From the NCBI RefSeq assembly GCF_947623445.1, contig NC_135241.1, forward strand, positions 2,792,501 to 2,856,500: a stretch of DNA of 64,000 bases, read 5' to 3'. The position numbers were made by a program, and so were the translations under genes. Positions 319-41,061 of the stretch are shown here, in pieces. Below the pieces are notes generated by a model. The model searched no databases and was not told the DNA's origin. It saw only the letters and a program-made list of their open reading frames with translations. The first letter of the stretch is position 1, and the number at the start of each line of letters is the position of its first letter. The DNA is from Clavelina lepadiformis. Lineage: Eukaryota > Chordata > Ascidiacea > Aplousobranchia > Clavelinidae.

Positions 319-1342
319 CAATGTATTAGTTCAGTTCGTTTCTCATGGGCGGCTACATAGCCCACACTACAAGAATGTTCTTGATATCAACAGATAACCT
401 AGATGCTATTTATCGAAAACGAGATGTCACTGATGCGGATTAATTTAAAAAAGAAAAGGCTTTTGTACAAGTATAAGCAACGGCCAGCAAAAGAAGTTTA
501 GGCCCAAAATTACAAAACAAAAATTTCATCAAACGCTCTAAGATAGCCATTAAGTACATCTTTCCTAAACCAGAGGTTTTCTTTGCACTGGCTAATATAT
601 CGAGGTGGGACAATTTTTTGAATAAAGGTTTATGATAATCTTGCTAAAAGTTGTAGGCTAAAAGGAATCTTCTTGGTCACAATAACGTCATCAAACAGCA
701 CTTATGACGTTATGCAAATGCCTGAATTTGGCGCACCTCACACTCAAGTTGATTACACGAGTTGGACAGCGGATGACTCATTAGAGAGACTATCGCATTT
801 AGGGATATTGACCTACAACACCATCACCGCTTTCAAAAACTGATCAAGCGAAGTTTGTTCAAGATGCTGTAATCGTATATTGTTACACACAAGTAAACTG
901 GCTTACATTTTCCATGAACCAGTTAACATTATGAGCAAAATGTTGGAAAGAGCGAGTAATTCGAAGCAAAAAAGGCTAAATAAAACCAGATTAATCACAT
1001 TAATGCAAACTTTTTAAGTTATTTTTCAGCAAAACGCAATTTTCAAGTCTCAAACGACTTCTGATATCGGTAAGTGCTTTGACATTTTGCACAAAACATG
1101 TTCACAAGCGTGACTGTGACGAGTTCACTGACACAAATCCTTGTTCTTTTGAAAAATGTACACAGCTGTAAACATGCGCTGAGTTGTGCGTGATTTGTGT
1201 TAGCCAGTAGCCTTGAAATTCTGTTTCAGTGTTAGAAAAAGTCAAAGAATTTCCTGTGGGTTACTTGATATTGTTGCTAGTAATTTTTTAAAACCAAAAA
1301 TACGGTATTTATTATCTTTTAAGGTTAACTGTACTTGCCATA
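319..1342. other. Non-coding upstream region of the calmodulin-like gene
   Basis: No convincing gene is visible here. A T-rich tract ending in AAG at 1321-1323 lies about 20 nt before the ATG and could be a 3' splice or trans-splice acceptor. No clear TATA box was identified. Confidence 0.5.
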
Positions 1343-2273
1343 ATGGAACCGAAGGATTTGAATGTTCGAAAAATGTCAATTTGTATCCTTCGGCGAAACT
1401 CTCTCCCGGAAAACCAGTTGGAGACGATGCACGCTGTTTTCCACCTCTTTGACCAGGACAGAGACGGTTACATTAATCCCGATGAGTTGAAACGGGCACT
1501 GGAAGCATCCGGGTATCATTTAACTGATAATGAACTTGATGAAATTATTAAAGAAGTGGACAGAAATGGAGATGGAAAGATAGATTTTGCCGAGTTCACA
1601 CGTTTGACAAACGCAAGAATAAAACCGAAAGATGAAGAATTTGACGACGATCAACATTATGAAAACGCGTTCAAGGTAAAACTGATATGGCGACTGAAAC
1701 TTTTCGCAATTCAGGTAAAAAAGTTTCACTAATCGGATATCAAAGTGAAAAATACCTGCCGTCACATTGAGTTGGTGTAATTTCGAACATTGTTCGTTTA
1801 CGGCGGCGCCTGTAAAAACTAATTGTACTTTTGTTTGTGTTGTCTGACCAAAAATTGATTACTGTACAACAAATCAAGTTAAATGAGGTTGTATATTTTC
1901 ACTCTTAACTGGTGAGCACAACAAACGACTAGCAATTAAATACATCTTGGCTCTGAATTACGAGCGGGTTTGCTCTAAACCGCACATCTGCTTCTATTGC
2001 GTTTTGCTTGGGAAAAATGATTCTTCGTCCATGGTAGACACTTTATCCTTATTAAGCGGACGAAATTATCTGAAGTGTTTCTGTTTGTTATTTCAGGTGT
2101 TTGACAAAGATGGCAACGGCTTCATTGACCGTGAAGAATTGCGCGAAGTTGTAAGAAGTATAGCAGGAGATCCGAATGAAGAAGAATTGGACAAACTCTT
2201 CGAAGAAGCTGACTTGAACGGAGATGGCCGGATTGATTTTAAAGAATTTATGCAAGCTCTGACCACTTTCTAA
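1343..2273 (+). CDS. Calmodulin-like protein with four EF-hands
   Basis: The two coding exons are 1343-1675 and 2097-2273, joined in phase 0 across a GT-AG intron, giving 169 aa. The four EF-hand loops are at about residues 37-48, 73-84, 114-125 and 150-161, for example DRNGDGKIDFAE and DKDGNGFIDREE. Each loop has acidic or polar ligands at positions 1, 3 and 5 and Glu at position 12, so all four look able to bind calcium. The N-terminus is about 20 residues longer than in calmodulin and the central linker is divergent, so this is a calmodulin-like paralogue rather than calmodulin. Such proteins are cytosolic calcium sensors, but the target cannot be told. The first ATG in frame before EF-hand 1 was taken as the start. 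An AATAAA follows the stop closely. Confidence 0.88.
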
Positions 2274-4845: not shown

Positions 4846-6531
4846 TCAGAAGTGGTTTTGTTTGCGTGATTTGCGTCTATGAACTGAGAAATCTTCTCGT
4901 ATTATGGACCACAAATAATCCCCCATCATGTTGCAACTCCACCTTCCTTGGTATCTTCTTTCCATACCAGAAATGTCCTGGTGAAACCTTTCACCATGTT
5001 CTTCGCTTACATCACCCATATTTGGACTAAAAAAATCAAGGTGAGAGTGCAGGTAATGCATTTTCAAGGACATACGACATCCCAATTTTTCGTATTCCTC
5101 CATCAGATTGTTCACCAAAATTTTATAGTCGTCGCTTCGTTTACTGCCGAGAAAAAAATTAACTACTTCTCGAAATGCCTTCCATGCTTCTGCTTCTCTC
5201 GTGGTCATTTTATTTTCAAGTTCTTTACACTGGAGCATAAGTCGAACCTGCGGCCCAGTAAAAATTCCAGCCTTCTTCTTAGCTTCTGACAAAAAAGGAA
5301 ACAGGGCAGAAATATGCTGAAAACCATCTCCATCTTTATTCATGGCCTTGAAAAATTGCTTGACAAGGCCAAGCTTGTTGTGCAAAGGAGGCATTAAAAT
5401 TTTTTCCGAATCCACCAAAGGATCGTGCTTCACATTTTGTGTGCCAGGAACGAAAAACGTTCTCTCTGGCCAATCTTTTCTAGAGTAGTGTTCAGTGTCA
5501 GCTCGGGAGTCCCATAAACAAAGAAAACAAGAATGTTTTGTATAACCTCCTTGCAATCCTTTTAAGAACCCAATCATTTTGAAATCTCCACAAAGCTGCC
5601 AGTTGTATCTGACATAGTTAATACTTTCAAGAAGAAACTTTACATTTTTGTAATCTTCTCTCATTTGGACAGAATGGCCAACGGGTATAGATGGATACTG
5701 GTTTCCATTATTAAGGAGGACACATTTCAAACTTCGGGAAGAACTGTCTATAAATAGGCGCCACTCCTTTGGGTCATGAACAATTCCTATTTCTTCAAAA
5801 AGGTTATCAACATTACTACAGAAGCAAAGAGAGCCTGCCACAGAAAAATACCTTGAAAATCTTTCATGCCTTTTTCTCGATAAAGAACATCGACATGACG
5901 AATCTAATAAGTTCCATTGTTTCAACCTTGAAGTCAGAAGTTCGACATTTGACTTAGTGAGCCCCATGTCTCTAACTAAATCATTTAATTCTTGTTGGCT
6001 TGGAAAGTGTGGTTCTGATATCATGTCAGTATAAGATATGTTCACTTCATCATCGGAGTCTTTTTCAATATCTTCAGACCTTGCTAAATCTTCTGGAGCT
6101 TTCTTGCTCGGTGGTTTGGGCAGTGGCAACTCACTGCTATGCGGAACAGGTGCAATAGAAGACGGTATAGAAGGATATACAATGTCACGTCGGTTTTTAG
6201 TTCTTCTAAACCTTGAAATGTCAACCATACAGAAATAGCAGTCATCTGTATGATTTTGGAGTTCTCTCCAGATTCTCGGAATAGCAAATGGCATCGAATG
6301 CCGGTCTCCTCTAAGCCAGCCATCCAAATTTGATCGGCATGTTCCGCAGATCACACGAGGTGCCCAGTGTTTATCTTGGTCACCAATTTTCATGCCAAAA
6401 TAAAGTTCACAAGCGTAAGAAAACTTTGCTTTTACATTTATTTTGTATTTCACTTGCTTTAAACTAATGTATAGACCACAGACATAGCAAAAACAATCAG
6501 CAGACAGCTTACATTTACGTGATGATGACAT
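4846..6531 (-). CDS. Uncharacterised transposon-associated protein (intact single-exon ORF)
   Basis: This uninterrupted 561-aa ORF belongs to a family I know from many arthropod, cnidarian and other invertebrate genomes, where it occurs as many near-identical single-exon copies. That behaviour suggests a mobile-element protein. The N-terminal ~110 residues are Cys-rich (CYVCGLY, VICGTCRSNL, CYFCMVD) and probably bind zinc. The conserved core follows, with RLFIDSSSRSLKCVLLNNGN, CGDFKMIGFLKGLQGGYTKH and LLPPLHNKLGLV-like blocks. It ends with the HLDFF...EEHGERFHQDI block. A shortened relative lies at 29363-30280 on the other strand. The acidic residues in the core could be catalytic, but this is not established. 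No terminal repeats were identified. Confidence 0.75.
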   Translation of the reverse strand: MSSSRKCKLSADCFCYVCGLYISLKQVKYKINVKAKFSYACELYFGMKIGDQDKHWAPRVICGTCRSNLDGWLRGDRHSMPFAIPRIWRELQNHTDDCYFCMVDISRFRRTKNRRDIVYPSIPSSIAPVPHSSELPLPKPPSKKAPEDLARSEDIEKDSDDEVNISYTDMISEPHFPSQQELNDLVRDMGLTKSNVELLTSRLKQWNLLDSSCRCSLSRKRHERFSRYFSVAGSLCFCSNVDNLFEEIGIVHDPKEWRLFIDSSSRSLKCVLLNNGNQYPSIPVGHSVQMREDYKNVKFLLESINYVRYNWQLCGDFKMIGFLKGLQGGYTKHSCFLCLWDSRADTEHYSRKDWPERTFFVPGTQNVKHDPLVDSEKILMPPLHNKLGLVKQFFKAMNKDGDGFQHISALFPFLSEAKKKAGIFTGPQVRLMLQCKELENKMTTREAEAWKAFREVVNFFLGSKRSDDYKILVNNLMEEYEKLGCRMSLKMHYLHSHLDFFSPNMGDVSEEHGERFHQDISGMERRYQGRWSCNMMGDYLWSIIREDFSVHRRKSRKQNHF

Positions 6532-6577
6532 ACCTCAATTTATCCAGAATCACGCTACCTGTAATTAACCTGATAAG

Positions 6578-8430: not shown

Positions 8431-9066
8431 GCAGGACAGTACAGCAAATCTTAAAACAAAGGAAACGATTTAAACTATGTAAATTTATTTAGGGCTCGCC
8501 CTGACCAGTTTACTCAAGTGTTTGGTTGAAAGTTGACCAGGTTGAGAGAAATTTGCCTGCGTATTTTTTCAAAGAATTTATGAAGAATAACTTATGCCGT
8601 AGATTCAATGAAGTGAAACTTCAGAGGACTCTTTGCTTATTTAAACCGATTGATTTCTTGTATAGGTACTGCACCTGGGTTGCAGTTCATATTTAAAAGC
8701 AAAGAGTTTTGCAGCCAAAGTTTTCCAAAATTTATCTCAACAATTTGAAGTATAGAGTAAGTTTATTGCAAATTTCGATACAAATTGTGGATGTCCATTC
8801 ACATCCAGATGCAAAATTGGAGATTTCTGGCTGGAGATGAAGTTTCTTTGGAACTTTAAATTTGTTTTGTATCGTATATACACCACTAACGCATAATAAA
8901 CAAGAACTTAGTTTGTCCGATGGTCGGTCTGAAAAAAACTAAAATTAATCCTAAACTATGTCGTCATAATGAAAATCAAGGTTTGCTACTATTTATTCAT
9001 ACTCAACAAGATCTAAAATCTATAGGACAGATTGCATCTTGACAAACAAATACTTCCTATTTGCAG
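8431..9066. other. Upstream region of the sulfotransferase gene
   Basis: No ORF or repeat is recognised. The last bases before the ATG form a good 3' splice acceptor (pyrimidine tract, then TTTGCAG directly abutting ATG). Confidence 0.45.
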
Positions 9067-10685
9067 ATGGCAGCAGCTAAGCATGTAAAGTATTTTGGCA
9101 TAATAAGCTTTCTTCTTGTGATCCAGTTTGTAACTTTGTTTATTTTCTGGAACCACAAATTTAATGACAAAATTAAACAGAATTTTTTATCGATTTCCAC
9201 CACAGGACTGCTGACGTCAACCAAACCATTTTGTCCACCTGTAATAACGAAAAGAAGACCTGACGTGGTGATTTTGTTTACTCAAATGCGCTCAGGCTCA
9301 AGTATACTCGGAGAACTCTTCAATCAACGCACTGACGTAACTTACTTGTACGAACCAGTCTTTCCTTTCGATGAACGACCATGTGAGAGACTTTACGAGG
9401 ACAGGATACAAGTATTACGTCATATTTCCCGATGCGAATTTTCCCCGCTTGCTATGCTTTATAAAAAAGCTTATAACGTCACAAATCGCAACGACATTCA
9501 CGCGAGGTGAATAGTTTTCAAAGAAACGGTTTTCAAGTACTGTACTAGGTGCATACATGAGTTACAGATGCTATCGAAGTCTAACAAAAAATAGGTCCAA
9601 CAAATAACATTTATTGATCTTTCAGATGTAAAATCCATAATGTTTGCTTCACAAGCAAAACGCAAAAAGTCAGCCATTTTCTATCACGTGATGCTGGAAT
9701 GTGTGAGGTAGCGAACCGTGTCCAGATCTGTCCGGAGCCATTAAACGCAACCGAACTGTCCGGTTACTGCAAGAAAAGCTTGTTAGTTGCGATGAAGGTG
9801 ATTTATGTTTGCAAGTTGGAATGGATCGTTCCACTCCTTCGTGACCCCGAGGTCAATATCAAGGTCATTCATTTGGTGCGGGATCCGCGAGCTACAACTA
9901 ATTCAAGAACTGAAGGCGGAGGCGGAATTGATGTTGCAAAGTAAGCTTTGGAGACGAATTTTTGCATCATAGAGAAGGCTAGCATCAACCTTTTTCGGAT
10001 TCTGTGTCATTCGAGATTAATCGTGCCCGGAATGCAAGTTAAAATCAATTCATGTTGAGTTTAAATACTTGTATAAATTGCAGAATGTCAGGCTTGTCCT
10101 CCATAGCTTAGCCTATCTTAAATCCGTAACATGCATTGGTTTTGTTTGACTTTGAAATTTGTACTTGTTTTTAAACCAATAAATAACAGTTTTGTGAGGA
10201 CCAAGTATGAATATAGTTTCATACTCTGTAACTATTTGTTTTATAGAAACGCCGGCAACATCATTTGCGAGAGATTGATTCCCAACGTCCAGTTTGCTGA
10301 TGACGTTTTGATGAAGGATCCGACATTACGTCACAAATACATGAGAATACGTCACGAAGACTTTGCCTTGGATCCAATCGGAGTCTCTGCGAAAATTTAT
10401 GATTTTGTTGGAATCAATTTTCTTGATAGCATGAAGTCATGGTTACGTAAAGCTACGTCATCAGAAAACAAAAATGATCTTTCTTTAAAAAATCCTCAAG
10501 GAACCAACCGGAATTCGATGGCGGTTTTGTCTCGTTGGAAAGAAAGTTTGTCCTTTGAAAAGGAGAAGGCAGTTCAAGAAATTTGCAAAGAGGTTATGCC
10601 CAAATTAGGTTATCGTCTCTTTAACTCAGAAAATGAGTTGAGAAATATTTCCAAACTGCATTTCACCACTAAAAATGCTGATTAG
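9067..10685 (+). CDS. Golgi carbohydrate sulfotransferase, CHST1-like
   Basis: The three coding exons are 9067-9506, 9626-9940 and 10247-10685, which join in frame to 397 aa, close to vertebrate CHST1. Residues ~11-28 form a type II membrane anchor after a short cytosolic tail. The 5'-phosphosulfate-binding motif for PAPS is TQMRSGSS (72-79) and the 3'-phosphate-binding motif is VIHLVRDPRATTNSR (about 227-241). The conserved C-terminal NSMAVLSRWKESLS...LGYRL block is also present. Members move sulfate from PAPS to the 6-OH of galactose or GlcNAc on Golgi glycans. The exact acceptor here is not predictable. Lumenal NAT and NVT sequons are present. An AG acceptor directly abuts the ATG, so the first exon may receive a spliced leader or a 5' UTR exon. 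Confidence 0.9.
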
Positions 10686-15080: not shown

Positions 15081-18000
15081 TCACCACTTTTCAAATTTAT
15101 CCACACATACTAATAAAGACATCCGTGATTCGTCTTCATTCTTTGCTGATAAATGTTCGGCGGTTCGTTTGAGTCCGATACATAAGTCGTTGCGTTGATC
15201 AGCTAGTGGTGATATGTTCGCTGCCATGGTGGCGAGTTCATTGCAACAAATGGATTTGACGTCACCACCCAGATTGAGAAGAATCATCAACCGTAAACAT
15301 AGTAACATGTTCCAGAAGCGGGGAAGTCCCGTCAGGCGCTTTTGTTTTTGAAGGTAGTTGTAAACGTCACTTCCTTTATCTCTCGTCATGGTTGGATGGT
15401 CTTGGTACAAGTTGCACAAACCTAAAAAACAAAAACAATTATAGTCACAATTATACAAAACTAAAATTGATAAAAAGTAGTTGATCCAAAAGCTTGTATA
15501 GCTGGGACAAATATGTCCACACGTATGTTGACGTCACATAAATTATATTCTGACGTAACAACTGAAGTAATTAAACAGACAATTCACTCGAATTAAATAT
15601 ACAAAAAAATTTAACAATTAACCACATATAGACATGGTGCCTGTCGTTTTCCATAATAAATAACTGATCACGTGCTATAAGAACAAAGTTTACTCGCGCG
15701 ATAAAGATCGCTACAGTCAGAAATCATTCAAGGTTATTGACACAGGTAAAGATTATCTCGTTGTTAACTGCAAATTAGTGACGATTTCTCCAAATGCTTT
15801 CCATCTCAGCCTGGTACGTCATAACATATCTTGTGCGCGGGCATTCAGTTGAGCGCGATTAAACAAAGGTGACGTCACAATAAACAGAAGTCTTTACAAC
15901 AGAGGTAAAATTGCCACTCTCAAGCGATTGCAACAGTCTAACAAGTCGCATGTTTGATTTGCTTATTATTACGTAATAAAGACGAGACAATCGTAACGCT
16001 ATAATTTTAATTATTACGTAATATGTAGAAGATAAAGAAACGGATATGATGCGCTGTGCAGATGCTTTGCAACATCAATTAACAAAACGTAAGAATTTAT
16101 ATTTTACTCGCGTCATAGTAAGGTCATTTCCTAAAGCGTTCAATGGGAGGAATGGGTTCAATTACGTCAATATCTATGACGTAATCAATGACAACATCAT
16201 CCAACGTTAAACAAAGACAACAAATATTTTTATTTCTTACCATTAATTGTGCAGTGAATATTTTCCATCTTCCATTGCTCGCTCTCATCTTCCACTTCCT
16301 GACTAACGTGAAATGATTTGATGTAGAACGCCTCAGCATCCTCAGGTTGGTTGTTGAAGTAGTAATCAGTACCTAAATAATTATAAATCCATGATTACGA
16401 TAAAAAATTTATAAAATGAACAAACTCGATTGTAAACCATAATTCCGAATGACGTCATAATCATCAATTCATAAACAAACAATGAATTAATTATCATTTT
16501 AAAACATAAATTGCCATTTGGTAATGACGTTGTAAATTAACATACGAACCCATATTATTGCAGCATGCTGAGTACAACCCCATCTTCCTACATCCATCGC
16601 CGAATGTGGATTCCAATGTGGTGATGGCCGGTTGGAGAACTTCGATTGCGCGCGAGTATTCAGCAAGATATCTACGGCACAATCCAATGGTCGTCCAACA
16701 TTCAGCTTTCGATGTTGCCACCAACTTTTTATCATCGACTTTCACTGATTGGATGGAATGAACGAAGCCAGTCATGCGTGAAATCACATGACGATATGTG
16801 GTTCGTTGCAGATTTTTGTTGTATCGCAAAATAAATCGGTAACATTCATATGCGCATCTCTTCATCAGTTTCACTTTCTCGGTAGGATCATCAATCTGTT
16901 TGTGAAGATCACCTGCGCACAATACAAGTTTGAGTAATCTTACTTGAGTTTGTTGAGTGCTTAAGAATGTTTAACGTTTAAGTAAGATCACCTGCAAGCA
17001 ACAGAAGTGGCAATATTATCGGTGAATATGTCTCACAACTCAGATTCGACATGTAAGCGATGATATCATTTCCAACATTTATTGCGTCATCAGCGGTTAG
17101 GGAAGTGGTCTTCATTGCAGATTTTAGATCTTCACAAACCTTCAGTGCTTCGTTTATTTTTTGCTTTGAAATCAGATCATTTATGGATGAGAGTTTTTCA
17201 ATCGTAATTTCCAACCCTGCATTGAAAAGATTCAAAAGTTAAATTTTAAATAATTCATTTTTAACCCTGCTTTAATATCAATGCATTGAACATAATTTTT
17301 TGCTCTGAAATATACAGCGATGAGAAATATGCTTGTCACATCTCTGTGGCAGGATTATCCTTGAAATAAGCGGGTCAATATGATTGTTAATGAGGTAATA
17401 TATAATTGTTATTGATCAATTGAAGTAATGGATTGAAAACAAAGGCAAGCGTATGCAACATTTGACAAAGATCTTGTACAAAGTATGAATAAATGACCCA
17501 CTTATATCGGATGACGTCAACATTGCAAAATTTTTTTTTGGTTTTAATCTTAACTGTTAATACGGATGTTCGGTTTTGAAAAATATACATCTCATTTGTT
17601 GCAACTTTTGTCTCGTTTTACATTGCCCTGTACTACGGTATAGTTTAGAGTTAGACAGTAATGCCAACCATTGTTTGGAGCTAACTACGATAGTTTTTAC
17701 CGCAAGATGGCGCACAATACTACGATTGGGCGTAAAATGTTTTTTACGTTTTAGTTCAGCCATAATTTAACACGCCTTAGCAATTAAACAGGAAGCCAGA
17801 TCTATTGGAAACATTCGCAAGGTATAAGCAACTTATCAGGATTGTGCGTTTTTGCCTTTCAAGCTGTTAAACAGATAATGATTTTAACCAACACACGTTC
17901 ACTTGTCGACGAGTTTAACCTTTCCATACTGTGAATGTGAAACTTCTTCCAAGATCTTTGACCACATTTAAATAAGCGAAGTGGAAAACAGGTTGCTTAT

Positions 18001-21000
18001 GAATATAGAAGATAGATATAACAGGTCGTATGATAAAAGATATTACAACTAACACGCGTAGTGGCGGTAGTTTATCAGCGTTCCCTGTATATAGCAGAGT
18101 TATGACCATGTTACCAAACTCGAGTTGAAACGAACCAAGTCAAGTCATTTCGCACATAAGACTGGAGTCAAGTCAAGTTATATAAAAAACGCAAAAACAC
18201 AGTTTCTGTCAAAAAGGAACTTTTAAAATCTTTGAAAATTTGCTTCGTTGCTTTGCTGCTCTGAACGCGCTCGACGGTTGGATTATCCGGATAACGGATA
18301 ACCGATTAACCGCAGTTTTTTTTTCCATCTGATATCCGGATATAATTCTGCCGGTTAACCGGCTAAAAGAGTATCGCTGCTAATGCGTTCGTGGACGCAC
18401 AAACTTCATTTCAAGATAAATTTTAATGTTGTGGCTAAGAAAATCAAAAAAAAATTTTTTTACATAATATTGAAACCTATTTAACAGGAAAACAACTCGA
18501 GTCTTTGCAAAAAGTGACTCGAGTCAGACTATGAATGAGTCTAAGTAAATACGAATAAACAAGAGATATGAAATCTACAAATTGCCAATTTAGTTTGAAA
18601 TAACCAAGGCAACAAACATATTTTAATACCTAGGGCTATGGTTAGGTGTAAATCATATAATTCATAATAAATAAAATACCAGTGTGATTAGTCTTTAGCA
18701 AAACAATTTCTTCAGGGGATGTCCCTTGTTTATACCTGGGAATTCCTGGGTTGTAAGAGTAGAGGGACCTACAATTACTTCATCCTGGATGGATGTGGCA
18801 TTGGATGAGAAAGATTGCTCTGTTGGTTACACAAATTAAAGTGAGAGATCAAAATCTGTGTCAACATGCATATGTCGGATATAACTGAACAAATGTTAAG
18901 AAATAGATGAAATTGTAGAAAAGATTTTTTGTGTTATATGATGTTAAGTGCACCATGCTCACGGAAGAGCACAAACAAGCAAAATATCTTTTTTATTCAT
19001 AATCTGCAATTACCCAAATATTTTTCTCTCTTAAACAGCTTTCACTTTTTACCTGAAGATGTTTTGGCAACATTACTCGAAACCTCATCAGCTCCATCTG
19101 CTCGGTCCTTTCTTGTGAATTCCGTGTCAGGAGCAGCTGGAAATGAATTTCAAAATAAGATGACATAAGACTAAAACATAGAAATAACAACCAAGACAAA
19201 ATATTAGTGAACAATTATGACAAGTGCTAACACTAAAGAGATACAGCGATAAAGCGCTAACACTAAAGAGATACTTATACTAGCCCTATTAGCCTATCAC
19301 CCTTGGGTACTTAAACCCGTTGTACTTGTGCACTAAGCTGCATCTTTACAAAAATTTTGCCATAGCAAGTAATCCTGGAAATTTAGAACCAGGTTCATTT
19401 TAGTTATAACTTTTTTCTTGCTACAAATTGCAGATCATTAAAAAGTGCAACTGTGACAGTTTTGTAAATACTTGATATAATGTTTAAACCAGTGGTTCCC
19501 AACCTTTTTTGCTGCTCGTACCCCTTCGTCAGGTCAGAGCATTCTTCGTACCAAAAAAATTCTGATGGAATTTTTCATATATATATTGCTCTGTGGCCCA
19601 AGGATCTTCGTACCCTTTGATGTTCAATCTCGTACCCCCAGTTGGGAACCGCTGGTTTAAACCAACATGAGTTGTACGAGAACATGATATACATAAAGCT
19701 ATATCAAAGGTTTTGCAAACAATTAGCTAACGTATGTAACATGTTACCATCACAATTAAACTCTTACTAGTGACGTCCTCATTTGCGTGGTGATGTGATA
19801 CATTCTCTATAGATGATTCAACAATATTGGAAGTAGATCTGCAATCAAACATTTTTGTTAGACGTTTCTACGAAAAAAATGTAATCTTTATTTCTTTTAA
19901 TTAAAATACTAAGATGTAAGATTAAAAAAGCACACTTATCGCAATATGGGGGAAACCCCATCACCGCAAACATTTCACATACTTTCACCGCAAACATTTC
20001 ACAAACTTTCGACAAAATGGTTCCCCTCTTATGAAGTTATTTAAATGGGCAAGTAGACGAGGGTATTGTCCAGTGAGTGATTCAAAAAAATCATTGTAGT
20101 TTCTACTGCCATCTTCTGAAACACCGAGAAGAAGTCTTGATGCTGCAGACTCCTTCTGTTCAGCATGTTGATTCTTAAATACAAAATCATCGGAAAAATG
20201 TAAAACTGCAAAATATGTACATACCAGTGTACAGATGGAAGTATTTGCTGGTTGAGAACATGCACAATTTCCTTACATAAGATGAAGTATTTTTAAAAAT
20301 CCAGTGATTTCGAAAAGATCTTAAAGCCTCACCATATTTCTTATCACAATAAGAAGTTCGTGGATATTTCCACATTTCTTCACTGGATAGTCTTCCTCTT
20401 TTCGTAGTGAGTCAGGAACATTGTTAATTGTTATTTTATGTTCTTCAAAGTCTTTCAGGGATTGTTTGTAAGATTCGACATCATGTTTTTTAAGTCGATG
20501 GAAATGCTCATTTGCTTTCTGAAATAAAAAAACTAAAAACATGAACAAAACCATTAATAAGTTTACGATCAGTTGTAATATGACAACAATCTCAGTGAAC
20601 AAACACATATAGGTTACGGGTTCAGTGAAAATGGACATAATGTAAATAAACATTGGAATTAAATTGTAATGTATACATGGGTTATCACCATATCACCCAA
20701 GTCACAATATAAATTATATAATGTACAAAATGTCACTAAATTAAAAGTATAAAATCAACATGAACACCAATAAACCTCATAAAATTTAATTTTTTTCTCT
20801 GAATCCCAGAAAATTGGATGATCTTTCACTTCTTCTATTATTGGTCGTTTTTCAGGATCAAAGGCAAGCATATTCTCTATGAGGTCATAAGCAAGTTCTT
20901 TTTGCTCATTGGATAGAAGATCTGTAGAAGTAGACTATACTTAGCTCAATAAAGAACATGTAAACAAATTATTAAAAATAAAAATTAGAATATGTGATAA

Positions 21001-24000
21001 ACTATGACCACTGAAGTTTGCCAAGATCAAAATCAGCTCATAAGCTCACTTAGAGAACTTCAAGTGTGTTGAAAACACATGTGATTCCCAATACATCTAT
21101 CACATACACCAAGCGTACAAAAGCAGACAGTCACATCTTTACCTGTATACTCAGGCAGAGCAATAAACAACAGATTCCTAATCATAAAGTGGATTAGCAA
21201 GCCTACTCATTACAACACATAGCATAGTTTTATGAGAAGGCGATATTTGAACAAGTTTAACATTAATCCATTTTAAGTAAAATATTTAGATTCCACAAAA
21301 TCTACTAAATCTAAGCAATATTGCTCAATATTCCATTAAAAACCATCAATCAAATTGAACAAAATTCTCAAAGATAAAGCTGTAATTTTTGTGCCAAATG
21401 TTTAAGAATTTAGCTGACCAATCTGCCAAAATTCGGTTAAGTGAAGCAAAAATGCAATAAAAACAGTAATTAAAAATAAAATCAATTAAAATAATTTAAT
21501 ACACTTTAAAGTACGTAACTTACGCTTATGCTAAAAATTACGCTTTAAAGTTTTCAATCTAGTACAAAAAATTTAAAAGCAAAATATTGAAAACTGAGAC
21601 TTATTCTAAGACTAAATATCGGAAACAATAAACTAGCAAATAATTTTATTTTGCAAACATTTTGAGCTTATTAGCCTTAACTTATTTTCAATGCGATAAA
21701 AGTAACCTTGGAGCTATACGCATGCAATATATAAAGGAAAGTGAATAATCTAGATGATCTGTAATTTATAAAACGAGCTGGTGTGAAATAAGACAGAAAC
21801 GAATGAATGAAAATGCTTAAAAAACAAATCTGGGATTTTTGTGTGAAACTATGAAATATTTACCTGAAAAATCTGCGCAATTTAACTTTGGAATTTCACG
21901 TTTCCGTAAATTTAACACTTGTTCATATGGATCCTCACCAAATGGATGACTGCCTTTGGTGAGAACATAGTTAAATAAAACTCCAAGAGAAAATATGTCC
22001 GCAGATTTTTTCTGTCACAATGTGATGCAACCCATTAGGTGTTGTTTTATACATTGTACAATTTGGTTGCAAACTCTGGTAACATACACACCCATTTTTT
22101 CTTCTCTTCTTTTTTTCGTGTATGATTCTCAGGAGCCATGTATGACTCGGTGCTGCCTGATTTCGTAGTTGCATGTGTTTCACCAGAACGTAATTTTTTT
22201 GTCAAACCAAAATCACACACTTTGACAGTAGTCTTACCATCATCACCAATCCGCATCAAAAAATTACTTGGTTTTACATCTCTGTGGACTGAAAGACACC
22301 ATGTTAACAAGTTATATTTTAAGAAATATGTAACAAAGACAAGTCTGGCTTATATGCTGGGTTCTACTAAAAATATGCCTCCATGCTTAAACCTAATGAA
22401 CAAAAGCTACATGTAACTGAGTTGGAGATGGAAGACCACACGGCTATGGAGAAATAAAATAGAGACAAAACGACGCAGTAAGTTTTACACAATTAGATTA
22501 TTCACTTGAGTGACCTGGTCAGGCTTAAGAACAAGCAAGCTTAGTGAGCATGAGCAAGTTTGCGTGAGTTATTACCTATGGTAATATGGTTATTTTGTTA
22601 TTACCTATGGTCAAACATTCCATCAATATACAGTTAGACCTCGTTAATCTGAACCCTGAACAACCGGAATCTCTATTATCTAACACAAAACTGCCGAGAA
22701 CGGATTTCTTCCTATGCATTTTACTCCTTTAATCCATGCATTCCACTCCTTTTACTCTAACACAAAAGTTTCGGAACAAATGTCCAAATAAATAGCAATA
22801 AAATCCGATAAACTGGATTATTAAGAGTGAAGCGAAAATGATTCACGATTGTCCTAGATACAGTAGTTAGTTGACGAAAACAATAGCCGTTATGTATGGA
22901 TAATAGTGTTGCAGTTTCTCTCTTTAAACACCTACGCATACTTTGAATAGGAGTAAGATGCATACTGCTTTTTGAACACGGTGCTGCATTTGCAAGATTG
23001 ATTGATTTTACGCTTTCCTATAATCCTGATACCTCGCTAAACCAACAGTTTATGACAAAACGAAGTGGTCCGGATTAACGAGGTCTGACTGTATGTGTAA
23101 ACCAAAGTCAACGATACATTTGAATCATACTCACTCATACTGCACTTTGTATGTAGATTATTGATACCATCTGTCGTTTGTTTGCAAATTTCCAAGGGAG
23201 TCAGATTGCACCCAGGAAGTTCACCATGTATCCACTGAAGAAAAATATACAAAATCTCATTCTCAATTGAAAAAGCATGCAGCTTTCCAGCAATGATTAC
23301 TGAGAATGAACTGGACCAAGCTTGACCCAAAAAAAGGGAAACTTTGTATTTGTTCACTTCAAACTGAACCAGATTCGGACATAACTTGTTAAAATATGGT
23401 ATTGTAGTAGTTTTTGATTTCTGCGCATGATTGTGGTATGTAGTGTGGTTATGTTAGTTGCATGATGAAACGGTTTTTGTTTTCTTGTATACAACCAAAC
23501 CTTCCCATCAAATAGTTGTTGATTAGGAGGTTGTTGTTGATTCTTACACTTGGATTTAAAAGTCTGCTCCTGGGCGCAATGTTGTTCATAATTCATTGTT
23601 TTTGTTGGATTAAGAAGTGGTAGATGCCGGAAAAATGAATTATTAAATGCAGAGCGAGTTTAAAAGTGGACAATGCACAATGTCCACTTTGTCTTGTGCA
23701 CAATGCAGTGAGCTCATAGTTGGTGACAAAATTAAATCATAAAAATCTGGATCCAGCTAAATAGTGTCTTTGTCTAGCAAGTCCATAACATACATATAAA
23801 AGACGCTGATGAGCATGAAAAGACATTCCTTAGACAAAAAGCAACAATACCTCTTCAATATCTCCATCACATAATTCCATGTAAATTGACATAAATTCAC
23901 CCTAAAATGCATGCAGCAACATTGAAAATTTTATTTCTAATACCTCGTAGCACATTTAGCATTTAATGCTTGAATAAATCTCATTTATATCTAACGTATT

Positions 24001-25662
24001 AAATTGCAGGAAAGTTTTAAAAAATGTTGCCTAATCTGAACCTACTTTTTCCTCTGTCCCTAAATATAAAACCACATTCTCGGGATAAGAACTCTTTTTG
24101 TAGAATTCCTTGAAGTTCTCAATTTCGCACAAACACATTTTGGCATTCAGAAAATGCCTTTTCAACATACACTTCTCAGCAATAAATATTCCATCTATTC
24201 TTTTACACCTAAATATAAAAGTAACTTTACAGAAAGTATGCCGTGTAGTCTGTATTCATTTAAAACAAACAACATTCCTTCACAAAAACAGTTCAAAATA
24301 TTAGGTAAGATAAATTACCACCAATCAAAACAGTTTGAAATGATCATGACTGCATGCATAGGACCAAGAGTGTGCAGGGAAAGCATGGTTAAGTGCAAAA
24401 GTACATACATTTTGTTTTTTGAGCAACTTATGACTTCATAAGCTAGAGCAGGGTAGTCTAAGACTTCCAGCACAAAGCGCCACATTAAGGTTCGAGGAAA
24501 ACGTTGCAGGACGTACAAATAGAGGAAATTCTGGTCTAATGTAGGCAAAGCACTGAGTTTACTGATCTAATCGAACTAATGTTTTGCCGCACGATTAATA
24601 ACGCACTTCTAAATACTTTCTACTTGTTTGCGTCTGCAACAAAGAGCAGAAATCAACGCATGTGTGTGTTGTCACACAATGCTGTGATGTTAGCCATTCA
24701 AAAGAATTGTTACTCCATAATAACCACATTGACTTGCACTTCAATGACATATCTCGGGCTATGGCTAATGCAATGCATTTAAATAAAACATAGTTGTGTT
24801 TTAACAAACTGCTGATTTTGATGTAACTGCACTAGTACCAGTGCAACACTAAAAAATCATGCCAAAAAGTAAAATTCAAATCTCAGTAATTTGAAATTAA
24901 CTTAAAAGTGTTTCTGTGGTTTTTTTCAGAACATTGATTTGCGTTTTTATAATTGAACGCTACTTCGCCGTATAATTCTCAGGTTCCATTTTAGGACACT
25001 TTGAAACTTAAGCCAAGGTTGTCGCAATGTACACAAAAGATAAGAGATACATGTCATCACACCACAGTAAAAACAAACAACTGAAAAATTAAGGCAAATC
25101 AACTGAGATAAAAGCAGTTCAGTTCAGTCTAGCTCAGTGTTTTCGCAGTACCTAAGGCATAACAAGCAAAAGCAGTTATATCTGTATCGTGACCACAACT
25201 TGCAGTAATTTACAACCACTTAGTATGTGCAAGGCGAAATATTTCAGGCTTAATGTGCTATAGCAGTTGGAAACTACCGGTTCTAGGTTCAATGCCATTA
25301 TTTTACTGGTTATTAAGGAAATACTTTTAGATCAAACAAAGTCTAGTATTTTTATCATGTGATGTGAAGGCAGTGGTATGAAAAACAAACAAATCAAAGA
25401 TACAAATTCTTCGAATTAAATGCAGCTCATTCTTTGGGAGCAAAAGCAGTCAATGTATTATATGTACACAACATATACAATAAAAAGATGTCATCATCAA
25501 ATTTGGTCAATACAGACAATGGTAGTCATAACCATAATAAGCAGATGAATCCTAGATAAAAAGCTAAGAAACCTACTTGTAAATGGCAGAGCAATGCGTT
25601 GATTTCATTGGTTCTCCTGGAAAACGTTCAAACAATTGACCACCAGCTTTTTGCTCCGTCAT
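15081..25662 (-). CDS. IRE1/RNase L-type kinase-KEN ribonuclease fused to a TPR-like domain
   Basis: Sixteen exons join in one frame (853 aa): 25662-25577, 24208-24046, 23901-23851, 23234-23135, 22288-22092, 22011-21864, 20921-20776, 20518-20333, 20173-19989, 19838-19768, 19136-19053, 18819-18736, 17216-16992, 16912-16550, 16372-16241, 15421-15081. Residues ~25-295 are a protein kinase: IAEK lysine (41), HRDVKPSN (135-142), DFG (159-161), APE (185-187). The Gly-rich loop is degenerate. Residues ~298-410 are a KEN ribonuclease domain ending in the YPRLLAHLN block. RNMNQH (357-362) aligns with RNKKHH of IRE1 and RNIGEH of RNase L, keeping the R, N and H positions. A Ser/Thr-rich linker (~420-500) leads to TPR-like helices (AECWTTIGLCRRY, NNMGTDYYFNNQPEDAEAF). 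There is no signal peptide or membrane helix, so it is probably cytosolic. RNA cleavage activity is inferred. The start ATG lies 14 nt behind a TTTTAG acceptor. Confidence 0.82.
18110..18545. repeat. Probable MITE with CTCGAGT motifs, in intron 12
   Basis: Inverted ACTCGAGTT and GACTCGAGTCA motifs and repeats of AAGTCAAGTCA occur at both ends of this stretch. Related motifs appear at 55627-55987. A palindromic TTATCCGGATAA cluster lies near 18285-18300. Boundaries and target duplication were not resolved. Confidence 0.4.
19490..19654. mobile_element. Short hAT-type MITE in intron 10
   Basis: The terminal inverted repeats are CAGTGGTTCCCAAC and GTTGGGAACCGCTG, flanked by the perfect 8 bp duplication GTTTAAAC (19482-19489 and 19655-19662). 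At 165 bp it is non-coding and depends on a transposase from elsewhere. Confidence 0.92.
22631..23091. mobile_element. Non-autonomous Tigger/pogo-like element in intron 4
   Basis: The ends are CAGTTAGACCTCGTTAATC and GATTAACGAGGTCTGACTG, with TA on both outer sides. This end sequence and TA duplication match the pogo/Tigger branch of Tc1/mariner elements. No transposase is inside the 461 bp element. Confidence 0.85.
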
Positions 25663-27366: not shown

Positions 27367-29362
27367 CAATGATACACTATTTTGTTGTGTTCAAATTTAT
27401 TTTGACCAGATTTATTCATGAGAGGTGACAGTTTGTGTCGGAGTGTTTAGTTTTAAGTTACAGGTTAACATTCACTATGTGAGAATTAATATGTCATTTT
27501 AAGCTGAAAATTAATATACAGTGCTATTCAAGAACTAGCCAAATTTACAGCATTCACATTTTCCTACTTGGCAAACGGCAGCCGGTAAAATAAGTGTATA
27601 CTTCACTAAAGATTCTGAACAAATGATGTCCTAAAGATGCAAAAATGTTTCTGTCAAAAATGTTTTGTTTGCAAAAAAGAGAGTGTTTGAGAAAATAGAA
27701 AAAAACAACCTCAAAATTTAAAAAACTTTAAATCAAATAGTTTATTTACTGTCTTCTTTTCTTTTTCCTCTCTATTCCTTTTTCTTTATAATCCTAAACC
27801 GATGTTGGTCAATGTTTTGTGCAATGGTACAATCCTTTACTTTCACACAACCTTATAACCCAGTGTCCTCTTAGCTTAAAGTTTAATACAGTTTATGCTA
27901 TTTTTAAAATCTCGAAACTTAGTAAGTAAACTGAGAAAATAGTGATAGTAACAGTAGATTATAAAGACCCAGATACATTTATGGCCTTTTTTGATACGTC
28001 ATAATCAATGTAAACAATTACTTTCTTATACCAAGTAAAATAAGGGGCGGTAGCTGATAAATACCCATCAACAATATTTTAAACTTTCATCGTAAGCTCT
28101 AACTAAATGTGCAAGTATTTAATGTTTGCACAGTCAAACAATTTAGAATACGAAAAGTGCTCACATATGGAGTTCTTTTTAAAAAATAGCTATAACTCTG
28201 GAGCACAACATACATATCATTATTTTCAATTAGCGGCTTGCTTAATAAGTTATCTACTAACTTATCACTATCTATACGTTATTTTCGATTCCATTCAAAA
28301 ACATTTAAATAATTCAACATTTTTACATCTATAAAATTTCGGGAATAAAACATTGTGTTGAGATAGGCCTGCATGAAAACGTCTCAAATGATACTGTGTT
28401 TATTTGGTGTAATTTTATTAACCTTTGTCAGACTGCAAGGGTACATTTGTAACCTTTCCAATTTTAAATTAAGAAAGTAATTTTTCTAGAAACCTGAGAG
28501 ACCTGAAATTTCCTGACATCTCTACATTTTTGTATTATATTATACTAAATTTCGACAAAAAATATTTTCTTTTTACCGAGATAGAGGATCGAGTTGTTTT
28601 TACACTCTTAAGAGGCGGCATGGGTACAATTGTACCCTTACACATTTTGTATCGAAATGATGCCAGAATAAATAACACAAAGACAATTTATCGAATGTTG
28701 AGTGAAACAGATTACAGAAATGATTTATTTGATACAGAAATATGTAAGAAAACTTAATGCAGGTGGTTTTAGTCCGTTTTACAATTAATACACTGTGTTT
28801 TTTGTCACTGAGTGCTCGTCGCAAACAGGCTGAACGCAAGCCAAGGAGATTTTCCTGGTCTGATGTCGTTTTCGTTTCTGGCGTCTGCAGACATAGCAGC
28901 TGCCAACAACACTACGTAACAAAATTTAAAAAAATTTTTGTTTGGCTACATTTATTAAGTGTGTCTGTATGATTTTCAAGCGCTGATTCCAAAAATGCTA
29001 TCAGTTTTTTTCTATCATCGATCGTTTTCAAGATACAATGATTTCCGTTTTTTGTGATTTTCCATTAACTGTAGGTATTTTATGCGGTTATGATCTGTGT
29101 CTGTCAGCATTATTATGTTGTAAATGGGCGTCCTATTTACTTGAGCAAGTGAATGGGAGTGGGAGTGTAAAATGCAGACGAATGTGCTTTTATTTCTTAT
29201 CTCAGTTTTCATTTTATCACAGCCTGTTAAATTCAGTATAGTCTCATTAGAAAGTTGCGTTTACTGTTTACAGAGAGAAGTATGCCATATGATTACATTT
29301 TGTAGAGTTAAGTCTTGTGTAAATCTTAGATTCAGTTCATCTATTAAATAGTAGAAATCAAA

Positions 29363-30280
29363 ATGTCTAGTAGACAGTGCAAAAATTTAAGTAAGAGTAC
29401 TGCCTACAGGAATAGGCACTTGGAGTTTTCTGTCTACTTTGACGTTTTTGAAGACCTTAGCTATTGCAAAGATGTAGAAGGCCTGTTTGGTGCTGTTGGA
29501 ATAGATCATGATCCTACTCAGTGGCGGCGTTTCATTGACAGTTCTACCAAAAGTCTTAAAGCAGTGTTACTTCACAATGGCAACATATACCCCTCAATTC
29601 CACTTGCTTATTCCTTACAGATGAAAGAAGATCATGAAAACGTCAAGCAACTACTCATTAAAATCAATTACACTCAGTTTGAGTGGTATGTTTGTGGTGA
29701 CTTTAAAATGTTGGGAATTTTGCTTGGTCTGCAGGGTGGTTACACAAAATACTCTTGCTTTCTCTGCTTGTGGAATAGTAGAGCTGATGGTGAGCACTAT
29801 GAGAAAATTTATTGGCCGACACTGGAAAAATTAAACCCAGGAATGTACAACGTTATTAGGGAACCTCTTGTAAGCCGGGAAATAGTTTTACTGCCTCCAC
29901 TTCATATCAAATTAGGTCTGGTAAAACAGTTTGTCAAAGCTTTGGATTTTCAAGGACAAGTTTTTCAAGAAATCCGTTCAGTGTTTCCCAGACTATCACT
30001 TGCCAAAATAAAAGGAGGAATATTTGTTGGTCCTCAGATAAACACAATGTTAAAGTGTAAAAGCTTGGATTTTTTATGTTCGCATCTGGATTTTTTTCAA
30101 GAAAATCTAGGTGACTTCAGTGAGGAACATGGTGAGAGATTTCATCAGGATATTGAGCCAATGGAAAAACGATATAAAGACCGCTGGGATAGTGTAATGA
30201 TGGGAAACTACATTTGGTCTTTAGTAAGGCAAGACAGGAGTAGTCATAAAAGAAAAGCTCGCTCAAAAGTACATTTTTGA
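29363..30280 (+). CDS. Shortened copy of the uncharacterised transposon-associated protein
   Basis: The 305-aa ORF aligns with the C-terminal two thirds of the 561-aa protein encoded at 4846-6531. Shared blocks include RFIDSSTKSLKAVLLHNGN, CGDFKMLGILLGLQGGYTKY and EEHGERFHQDI. The Cys-rich N-terminus is absent. About 55 residues between LKCKSLD and the HSHLDFF block are missing without breaking the frame. The core is otherwise uninterrupted. It lies inside a piggyBac element, so it either inserted there or was captured. It is probably non-functional, but a retained core activity cannot be excluded. Confidence 0.65.
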   Translation: MSSRQCKNLSKSTAYRNRHLEFSVYFDVFEDLSYCKDVEGLFGAVGIDHDPTQWRRFIDSSTKSLKAVLLHNGNIYPSIPLAYSLQMKEDHENVKQLLIKINYTQFEWYVCGDFKMLGILLGLQGGYTKYSCFLCLWNSRADGEHYEKIYWPTLEKLNPGMYNVIREPLVSREIVLLPPLHIKLGLVKQFVKALDFQGQVFQEIRSVFPRLSLAKIKGGIFVGPQINTMLKCKSLDFLCSHLDFFQENLGDFSEEHGERFHQDIEPMEKRYKDRWDSVMMGNYIWSLVRQDRSSHKRKARSKVHF

Positions 30281-37636: not shown

Positions 37637-39728
37637 TTACAAAAGCGGTATAGAAACAAATTGACTTCTGTTGGGTAGCAATACACATTTTGAACAAACT
37701 TCTTTTAGATTTATCACACACAGACGATTATTTAGATCTCGTACAGACCAGATGTTCAGTCTGCTTGAATGAACTGGATAGGAAAAAAAGTTATCCTTTA
37801 CATAAAATGTTTGGCAAACAAGCTGGGTTGAGTTATTATAGAACAAAATATTTTGAATTAGATAAATGCTTTCCTGTACTTGTACACAGTTATCTGGACT
37901 TTTAGTACGTAAAACATAATCAGATACGTACAGTTCATGGTATTGCATACAATCATTAACATCTATGTCTGCAGGCAGAGGTCCTGTACAGTGTCTTTTT
38001 TTGTAATGTGTGCCCTTAGTTTTGTTTGCTTTGGTGAAAGGCCTATGCATTTTCTCTGATAACCGCCGAATGGCCTGAGGTAGTGGTGCATGGGGCTTCC
38101 TTAAAAGCCTTTTCAGTGACTGCAAATAATTTTCAAATGGAAAGCTGCAAAATGAATGAAGTGGTCCAAACTGCTTAGCATGCTTAGCTAGATGTGTAAG
38201 TGCGTGAACATTATATATTATTTGATCTGATCCATATAAATTACTCATGTGTTCAATAAATACAAGAAGAAGTTCACCAGCATAATTACAAAAATTAAAG
38301 CAAAGAGTGGGACTGCATAAAATGGTTATGCTTACATGTAACAGCATGAAATTGTCATATAATGAGCTAGGCAGCTTGTCACGAAAAACAACTGGGCCTG
38401 AATACAAAAGAATTGTACGAAACTCAGTTGCTTTCCATCGATCTAACTCTGAAAGCGATCTACCTTTTCGAAGAAATTCTCTGGGTAAAAACTGTTTTAG
38501 CATTTTTAAACTGTCAGAAATGGACGAGAGAATATTGCCGCCAAGTCTTGTTTTCAATGGACCACTTGTCAATAAACACAACAATTTTCTCATAACTCCA
38601 AGGCATACAAGATGCATATAATCAAGTGGAAATTGTGACACCATTCCTATGTTTAATAGTGTCAAACATGATTCTCCGTGTTGGTGATCTTCATAAGCCA
38701 TTTCTTTAAACTTTACGTCAGTTCTTGGAGCAGCGTCACAACTTGGAAATGTCATTCGATGATTATACCAAACACCTCTCTGTTCACAGTAGTCACAACC
38801 ATAATATCCCGTGTGTCCCTTTGTCTTCTTTACAAAAGCCCGTGCTGGAGTGTCACAAATCACATTTGACAATTTTATTTCATACACTTTTCCATCATCA
38901 TAGATCACACCAACATCATCAATTTCATGCATTTCTTTAACAAATTTTTCAAGAAAAAGCATTAGCATCTTTGAGTTTAGAAGTCCCTACCCAAAGACCA
39001 ATAACAAAAGGTTCAGCATTTTTCTCTTGAGTTGTAAGACCTAATATAGGCCAAAATGATTCAGTACTGCTTTTAAATAATGGTAAACCATCAATGTTGA
39101 TCTGAAGCACAATCTGATCGCACAGACACAGGTTCTGGTGTCTCCGTAGCCTAGATTTGATCCCTTCGGCTATGCCGAAGTGGTGATAATGTCCACCAGC
39201 AATTTCATTAATGTCATACGTGCGACAAGTGTGAAGAAGTGTATGACTGTCTTTTGGCAAGTAAGGAAAATGAGGTCTTAAAAGAGTCAGTAAAGAGTTT
39301 GTATGAGACAAAGGTGTCTGACTTTCAATTACCCAGTGTTTCAGAGTAGTAACAAAATCATTCTCATCATCACTAGGCCCATCACTTTCAGAATTACTGT
39401 CATCATAGTTACTCCAACCCTCATTTTGACTTTGAATTAAATGACCATTCCGAGATTCTACATTACTGTTTACCATATAAGTACGTTGGTCTGAATTATC
39501 ATTAACATCAAAGTCAATGTTCTGCGAAACAGAACGATTACCGGTACATGTAGACATTGCAGATATACTTTCTGTAGTACTATTTGATTGTAATACAGCA
39601 ACCGGATCCAATCTTTCTTCATCGCTTTGCTGGAAAAATATGTTATGCCGTTCAGCTCGTGCTGCAGCATGCCGACGCAGTGTTCTATCAGAAACTATAC
39701 TGGTATGCATGTTTTGTGCTGAAGCCAT
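37637..39728 (-). pseudogene. EnSpm/CACTA-like (tnp2-type) transposase with one frameshift
   Basis: An upstream frame (39728-38949, 259 codons) and a downstream frame (38968-37637) together cover a complete transposase of roughly 690 residues. The first part holds INIDGLPLFKSSTESFWPIL. The second holds GHTGYYGCDYCEQRG, IGMVSQFPLDYMHLVCLGVM, RWKATEFRTILLYSGPVVF, YNVHALTHLAKHAKQFGP and SFPFENYLQSLKRLLRK. All are conserved blocks of the animal tnp2-related transposase family. The frames meet at a run of five T (minus strand) near 38955, consistent with one extra base. No intron fits there. It could be inactive, mis-sequenced or read by frameshifting. Nothing else in the gene looks decayed. Confidence 0.8.
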
Positions 39729-41061
39729 GGTTAACCTAAAAACATGACACTTTTATTAGTCAAACTAGAAGCTATTATACATTACAAGTGCAAAATTACA
39801 CACCTTAATTCTATTTTACACAAGTGCCAGAGAGACTCAAAATACACATGAGGGGGCTTTTTTATCCCCCGTCTAAAATACATGTTTCGCTCATGATAAA
39901 GTTACAAAACTTGGCAGTCTTGGACACCTAGCCTAGGTTTATTATTAGACCTCTTCAGATATTGACTTTGCTTGCATGACTTTGTACGTATTTCTTTCTT
40001 ATAGGGCACATTTTATTTCGAGATTTTGCCTCATTCGAAATTTAGTGGATGTCTTTTATATGCCAAATTGTTTGAAATATAGGCTATACTTTTGTTGAAT
40101 ATTGATTTATAATCCTGAAACGGAAAACAACCTGCCTTAAGCAAATGACGCAGCAGTAGGCCTAGTCGAAAAACACACGTAGGCTACGTGACTAAGGCCA
40201 TTAGCCTATACCAAACTCTTTACGTAGCCTAGCGTGCAGACAGAGATGCACATCAACCGATCAACGAGTCTCGTGCATGTGTATGTTTCATGATAAGATC
40301 TAATCGAACTGCAATTGGTGCATATAACATTTGGATTTGTATCAAATCTCTAACCACTTATCAGCAGCAATACTATATAATAAACCGAACTATAGTTTAA
40401 AATCCACCAAAAAACAATTTTTGCCTGCCTTCATATCTTTTAAACGTTACATCCTCAATCCAAACTATTGTATCGTATTGTATCGTAGGCCTATGTAAAA
40501 ACTATTAACTATAACCAACTATCCTATCGCATTGTTCAAACTAGACGGCGTACTGGCTGGCGACGATCAATAGATAGCCTCAAAGCAGAAAAAAACATTA
40601 AAATGATATCGATTTGATAACTTAGAAATAAATGTTTATTTAAGTGTTAAACAAAAACTCAGAATAAACAAAGAAGTATAATACGTGTTATATTCAAAAT
40701 ATCTGAATAAAAAAGCCAGGGGTGTTATTACTATAGCAATTACTATAATTATTATAATTGTTACCAACATTTAGTGATAAAACCTTTCCGACTGTTACGA
40801 ACCTCATTAAATAATAACATTTATATTTTAAAAATATTAAATAAAACTAACTTATGTATGTTTAATCATTATTTTGTTCTAAACGGTTTTACGGCATCAG
40901 CTAACATCACTAATGGACCTCCGTCGGCCCGACAAAGATCTTTTGGACAGCGTAAAAACACCGTGTCTAGCTTGCTACCCATTAGCGGCAGAGGAGCTAC
41001 AATCGCTATAGCGAGAATAGCTCGTTGTAGCTGTCGGGCCGACAACTACGTGCTATCTGGG

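Follow-up and report, generated by a model that had tools for sequence, protein, structure and literature searches.

A chimeric kinase-KEN gene with a C-terminal TPR module in the tunicate Clavelina lepadiformis

The described systems closest to the gene analysed here are IRE1 and RNase L. In IRE1 (ERN1/ERN2), whose outputs are XBP1-type mRNA splicing and RIDD, the kinase is directly followed by the KEN domain and the unit is controlled by an ER-lumenal sensor that precedes it together with a signal peptide and a transmembrane segment. RNase L is a soluble kinase-KEN protein with N-terminal ankyrin repeats that bind 2',5'-oligoadenylates (2-5A). The gene in question, LOC143445974, lies on the minus strand of a 64,000-nucleotide stretch of the 209-Mb genome of the tunicate Clavelina lepadiformis (the window; chromosome 2 (C2):2792501-2856500) and encodes a kinase, a KEN domain, a linker and a C-terminal TPR module. 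Genome comparisons showed that it is a chimera of a kinase-KEN family and a linker-TPR family, which adjoin each other on chromosome 4 (C4). The pairing of kinase and KEN is old, and the TPR on KEN appears to be the new part of the architecture.

No KEN-TPR fusion was found in titles and abstracts on KEN, on RNase L/IRE1 evolution and on ascidian domain shuffling. In the cited sections of a survey of the HEPN superfamily (PMC3710099), the table of KEN partners gives kinase, ankyrin, CCCH, UBI and BRCT, with TPR not listed there. The same sections describe an expansion of solo KEN in the tunicate Oikopleura and name C6orf70, DZIP3 and LA2681 as other HEPN-TPR fusions. These three also place a HEPN-superfamily RNase beside TPR, but their HEPN families are other than KEN.

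Gene structure and domain architecture

The gene consists of 16 exons separated by GT-AG introns, which keep a single frame from the ATG at 25662 to the stop at 15081, with an in-frame stop just 5' of the ATG. The spliced product of 847 residues is identical to the public model P0002 (LOC143445974 isoform X1), showing that this model carries the same frame, in the same number of exons, as the original prediction had read by eye. The other elements of that prediction, a kinase with HRD, DFG and APE, a KEN domain, a Ser/Thr linker, TPR-like helices and the absence of a transmembrane segment, all held up in the analyses described below. The domain search of the spliced protein gave a divided result, in which Pkinase was found whereas Ribonuc_2-5A and TPR each scored below the Pfam cut-off.

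Exon 1 (25577..25662; this and all other exons on the minus strand) carries the start ATG and encodes an N-terminus without a hydrophobic stretch. The kinase extends through exon 2 (24046..24208, N-lobe), exon 3 (23851..23901), exon 4 (23135..23234), exon 5 (22092..22288, with HRD, DFG and APE), exon 6 (21864..22011, C-lobe) and exon 7 (20776..20921, kinase end). An alternative donor of exon 4 at 23140 would remove the residues SM. The Pfam Pkinase match (E 3e-36) starts at residue 25, with HRD at 135, DFG at 159 and APE at 185. Residues 1-60 contain no GxGxxG, and IAEK (exon 2) stands where VAIK is expected.

The KEN domain is encoded by exon 8 (20333..20518, first half, with the catalytic R-N close to the exon end) and exon 9 (20007..20173, second half, with the catalytic His). 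Together they form the R-N-x3-H motif (RNMNQH, residues 357-362), which is common to IRE1 and in which the role of the R and the H is described in the HEPN survey (PMC3710099, cited part). A phmmer search, run with an 823-residue version of the protein (15 exons, without the exon at 18819-18736), aligned residues 62-401 with human IRE1, KEN included (3p23, E 3.6e-41), the best solved relative over that range. A profile of five Clavelina KEN sequences also finds the IRE1 KEN (E 5e-5). Its PDB matches at E<=1 comprise 22 chains, of which the first 13 listed are IRE1 and none is RNase L. Foldseek ranked IRE1 first for the kinase-KEN, with low confidence in that part of the model. The R-[N/D]-x3-H motif is kept in six of the seven Clavelina kinase-KEN proteins examined; P0024 and P0025 overlap and have identical residues there, which makes it five of six distinct proteins. 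The exception is P0027, for which the genomic reading upstream gives DQH, and its motif loss may be a splice choice in the model.

The linker (residues 417-493) is 30% Ser/Thr, has no Met and is encoded by exon 10 (19768..19838), exon 11 (19053..19136) and exon 12 (18736..18819). In alignments with the linkers of 28 relatives, these exons beat all 100 shuffles against one (P0001), seven and nine relatives, respectively. In the TPR family, the linker exons are cassettes (SEQSSSTSATSIQDEVNAGSSTLTTRESPG type) repeated in varying copy number (P0001, P0006, P0010, P0012 and others) and resemble an expandable tether. The TPR module starts in exon 13 (16992..17216), continues through exon 14 (16550..16912) and exon 15 (16241..16372), and ends with the stop in exon 16 (15081..15421). 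All Pfam TPR scores of the window protein are below the cut-off, which three of the six TPR-bearing relatives scanned pass (P0001, P0011 and P0017) and P0004, P0009 and P0015 do not. Consensus TPR proteins are matched by a profile built from five sequences of the module (E 2e-10), and residues 494-846 are modelled as a repeat of 16 helices with a predicted local distance difference test score (pLDDT) mostly of 85 or more, in line with the superhelix of tandem 34-residue helix pairs that defines TPR proteins. The PDB fold searches and the re-alignment returned kinases throughout and have no bearing on the TPR part.

No transmembrane segment was seen, the highest 19-residue mean hydropathy of the whole protein being 1.43. 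The domain matches and the hydropathy together support the proposed soluble kinase-KEN with a C-terminal TPR module, a layout unlike those of IRE1 and RNase L. The window protein shares with IRE1 the direct succession of kinase and KEN. However, neither a lumenal domain nor a transmembrane segment was seen, nor was a signal peptide, although no predictor of signal peptides was run, the kinase match beginning as early as residue 25, and a C-terminal TPR module is present and a Gly-rich loop is not. With RNase L it shares the presence of KEN in a soluble protein with a repeat module. In RNase L that module is ankyrin and N-terminal, whereas here it is TPR and C-terminal, and no ankyrin family is among the Pfam matches of the window protein at E<=1.

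Relatives of the two halves and origin of the chimera

Both protein searches were confined to relatives within a length range that have short exact words in common with the query. The kinase-KEN search (relatives of 228-726 residues; best 120 of 126 matches) placed five Clavelina proteins at the top (E 5e-69 or better), followed by Daphnia (4e-20), P0030, a Chironomus kinase-KEN (1e-8) and scattered kinases. P0030 (290 residues), a Clavelina CCR4-NOT subunit model, is a fragment-like match that is 70% identical to 12% of the query. All 22 relatives found for the linker-TPR half are Clavelina proteins. A profile search with the TPR module, among the 7997 candidates richest in common words, also listed Clavelina proteins only (five of five), but it proves no absence because known relatives such as P0003 were missed. 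Among the relatives found, the proposed tunicate-specific factor narrows to Clavelina, the source of all 22 TPR-half relatives and of the five strongest kinase-KEN relatives.

The Clavelina kinase-KEN proteins P0023-P0027 are 41-69% identical to the window protein over the kinase-KEN unit, but they stop at KEN or bear other tails. Three of them bear the NCBI names IRE1-like or IRE2-like, and P0023 has a C-terminal segment that is strongly hydrophobic. No TPR was found in the five by eye, or by Pfam in the four scanned. The likeness of the P0027 tail to exons 10-11 was considered as a second fusion and rejected, as 297 of the 2000 shuffles reached its score. In a KEN tree, the window copy joins P0027 (93/94), with long-branch warnings.

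At the genome level, the kinase-KEN query has at least 93 exon-level matches, part of them to other kinases. For the KEN exon, at about 289-367 of the query, no fewer than 16 places were counted, 13 on C9, two on C4 and one in the window, a lower bound because 100 of 165 candidates were scored. The 13 matches on C9 form a cluster at 13.81-14.38 Mb, where three identical scores suggest very recent duplication. The two C4 copies lie near 23.85-23.93 Mb. The only match above the cut-off in a genome search with the Pfam KEN model is a separate gene at C4:5.50 Mb, which is probably IRE1 itself.

Inspection by eye of the 22 TPR relatives showed another N-terminal kinase in 15, which we take to be TKL-like, and an IRE1-like kinase-KEN in two (P0002 and P0015); the remaining five have a truncated kinase, no kinase or some other N-terminus. 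The different-kinase proteins (LOC143452114, LOC143471078 and others) share the linker cassettes (chromosome 4 type) and the TPR module with the window protein, at up to 78% identity over part of the query. They differ in the kinase, and KEN was not found in the three scanned by Pfam (P0001, P0004 and P0017). P0015 (1020 residues) has the order TPR, kinase, kinase, KEN, the reverse of the window gene. In P0009 and P0011 the TPR module follows a common N-terminus of unassigned type, and in P0022 another N-terminus with a hydrophobic segment. In a tree of 23 TPR modules, the window copy falls into the main group, but the tree does not single out its closest relative. Within this larger modular set, the window protein is one product of shuffling, and the kin of its TPR half are the genes with the other kinase.

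The prevalence of the different kinase among these relatives could also mean that the kinase is the working part of the window protein and KEN a scaffold, in a TPR-kinase signalling adaptor like its other-kinase relatives. HRD and DFG are intact, as such an adaptor would have them, but the lack of a Gly-rich loop and the retention of the catalytic KEN motif in most distinct family members make this very unlikely.

The genomic counterparts of both halves were found on chromosome 4 (25.07 Mb in the published assembly, where chromosome 2 has 26.54 Mb; PMC10884593, cited part). There, a different-kinase-linker-TPR gene runs from the other kinase (23945-23943 kb) through linker exons to the TPR (23938-23937 kb), and within C4:23924-23945 kb two kinases and a KEN lie directly behind this gene on the same strand. 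The linker-TPR blocks of the window (16113..18862, minus strand) are colinear with the 3' half of this gene (C4:23937228-23941349) over exons 12-15 and their introns, at 85-88% DNA identity. A second tract, spanning exons 7-8 (20203..20918, minus strand), is 85% identical, introns included, to C4:23852701-23853414 and is likely a gene conversion or a recent copy. In these two best tracts the exon identity is 88.4%, with intron identities of 87.8% (TPR) and 86.3% (exons 7-8). Exons 2-5 and 9 are 76-85% identical to the same C4:23852 gene (exon 9, 79.9%), with introns unmatched.

The idea that the KEN half arose by one clean duplication from C4:23852 was rejected, since beyond the exon 7-8 tract only exons match. 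It is also contradicted by a synonymous divergence (dS) of 0.90 in the kinase exons vs. 0.14 in exons 7-8, a difference that points to a later gene conversion of exons 7-8. Exons 10-11 match linkers of the TPR family, which suggests that they arrived together with the TPR half; in that case intron 9 would hold the join. In the simplest account, recombination inside or between such clusters would have put the linker-TPR 3' end behind a kinase-KEN gene.

Two further observations were made in these regions. Broken pieces of the last TPR exon (exon 16) lie at C4:23881-23904 kb; two of the three have stops in the aligned stretch, and they are apparent dead copies. The segment at 22626-23094 of the window, in intron 4, is a repeat that recurs in both orientations at several sites of the chromosome 4 cluster and may be a small mobile element.

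The old stop codon and a possible splice choice

The two KEN copies on chromosome 4 carry a stop just after KEN, and the window retains a matching in-frame TGA near that position (19985..19987, minus strand). The donor used by the public model, at 20006, skips this old stop and joins exon 9 to linker exon 10; a donor at 19988 would do likewise. The sequence around the TGA and the alternative donors is present twice, owing to a tandem repeat at 19950-20010 with a period of 24 and a match over 19 bases. If intron 9 were retained, translation would stop at the old TGA and yield a protein with KEN only, so that splicing could determine whether the enzyme bears a TPR module or lacks it.

The retained stop raises the question of whether two neighbouring genes are present, a kinase-KEN gene with its end at the TGA at 19985 and a TPR gene, merged wrongly by prediction or joined only by read-through. 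The stops of the chromosome 4 KEN copies fit such a pair, as does the existence of a model with linker and TPR only (P0003), and P0015, with the two families joined in reverse order, might result from the merging of neighbouring genes. However, the public model uses a specific donor before the TGA, the first Met past KEN is residue 529, inside the TPR module, and exons 10-12 match internal linkers of TPR-family relatives, all of which disfavours a split at the TGA. Moreover, no near-identical shorter KEN protein is present among the best 120 of 126 matches (228-726 residues). Two separate genes therefore appear unlikely, and an exon 9 that ends at the TGA as the only product was rejected, given the position of the donor and a linker without Met.

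Selection and proposed function of the fusion protein

The ratio of nonsynonymous to synonymous substitution rates (dN/dS) against the chromosome 4 copies is 0.15 for the kinase exons (bootstrap 0.08-0.24), 0.40 for the KEN exons (0.20-0.84) and 1.06 for TPR exons 13-15 (0.67-2.14). The aligned codons are without stops in all comparisons. The kinase as a whole is held by selection, and the TPR part gives no sign of constraint.

We lean, with somewhat more confidence than doubt, towards a reading in which the chimeric gene encodes a cytosolic kinase-KEN-linker-TPR RNase that acts in the manner of IRE1 and RNase L, with the TPR module recruiting or sensing. By analogy with these enzymes, nucleotide-bound kinase lobes would pair and bring two KEN domains together as an active endoribonuclease. 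The TPR superhelix would take the place of the IRE1 lumenal domain or the RNase L ankyrins and gather molecules by binding a partner or ligand. RNA cutting, the ligand and an antiviral role are what we infer from this architecture. Given the many copies of the family, their partly tandem arrangement and their modularity, defence or stress would be the likeliest setting. Two OAS1_C exon matches above the cut-off at C4:4342969-4344987 mark a possible oligoadenylate-synthetase-like gene. A maker of a 2-5A-like compound may thus exist, and nothing ties it to the window gene.

Several points weigh against this reading. The Gly-rich loop is missing from the kinase, which makes kinase catalysis doubtful. 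The Pfam Ribonuc_2-5A score is 18.8 bits (E 0.0018) against a cut-off of 23.3, and the KEN here is therefore a diverged one. Both structure models are poor over the kinase-KEN, the second with a mean pLDDT of 55.8, and the public model LOC143445974 X1 is itself a prediction. No good counterpart of exons 10, 11 and 16 turned up in the 140 kb of chromosome 4 that were read, except for the broken exon 16 pieces, and hence no parent of the complete 3' half was found there. The immune role is one that we infer by analogy. Each dN/dS value comes from one paralogue pair (193 kinase, 108 KEN and 228 TPR codons). Exons 7-8 alone, a tract similar in age to the TPR copy, give 0.86 (0.41-2.01); fast change of the TPR part is thus suggested rather than proven. 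The young tracts in both halves look loose, and fast recognition and relaxed constraint fit them alike.

Relaxed constraint would be the mark of a decaying chimera, in which the fusion was made and the unselected TPR half adds no function. The TPR dN/dS near 1, the almost equal exon and intron identities (88.4% vs. 87.8%) to the chromosome 4 copy and the broken last-exon pieces at C4:23881-23904 kb are consistent with decay. Nevertheless, the TPR exons are all open and full length with intact splice sites, the fold of the module is predicted confidently, and fast-evolving recognition modules would give the same picture. We regard decay as improbable.

A wider view of the same modularity, offered tentatively, is that Clavelina has modular cytosolic receptors in which a fast-changing linker-TPR cassette sits on several output domains. 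An RNA-decay effector would in this way have come under a diversifying recognition module, which a splice switch over the ancestral stop would turn on or off. Most of the outputs would then be the other kinase, the IRE1-type kinase-RNase would be the output here, and two further N-termini (that of P0009 and P0011, and that of P0022) might complete the set.

Elsewhere in the window, EF-hand pairs of a calmodulin-like protein are encoded at 1292-2270 (plus strand) and a sulfotransferase-like gene at 9043-10682 (plus strand), with a Sulfotransfer_1 match in 10122-10682 and the part at 9043-9507 assigned by eye only. Two long open frames, at 4849-6534 (minus strand) and 29348-30277 (plus strand), are alike by eye, have no Pfam match and are perhaps a mobile element. 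Mobile-element-like open frames also lie at 37640-39752 (minus strand); the first of these weakly matches DUF4218, at a score under the cut-off.

If the favoured reading of LOC143445974 as a TPR-controlled kinase-KEN RNase is true, the protein would represent a third mode of control for a kinase-KEN RNase, alongside the lumenal sensor in IRE1 and the RNase L ankyrins that bind 2-5A, and this in the group that is sister to the vertebrates. The gene also records the recent birth of a kinase-KEN effector by the joining of parts of two gene families. Because the low divergence leaves the parental introns partly recognisable, the steps of this fusion are datable and testable.

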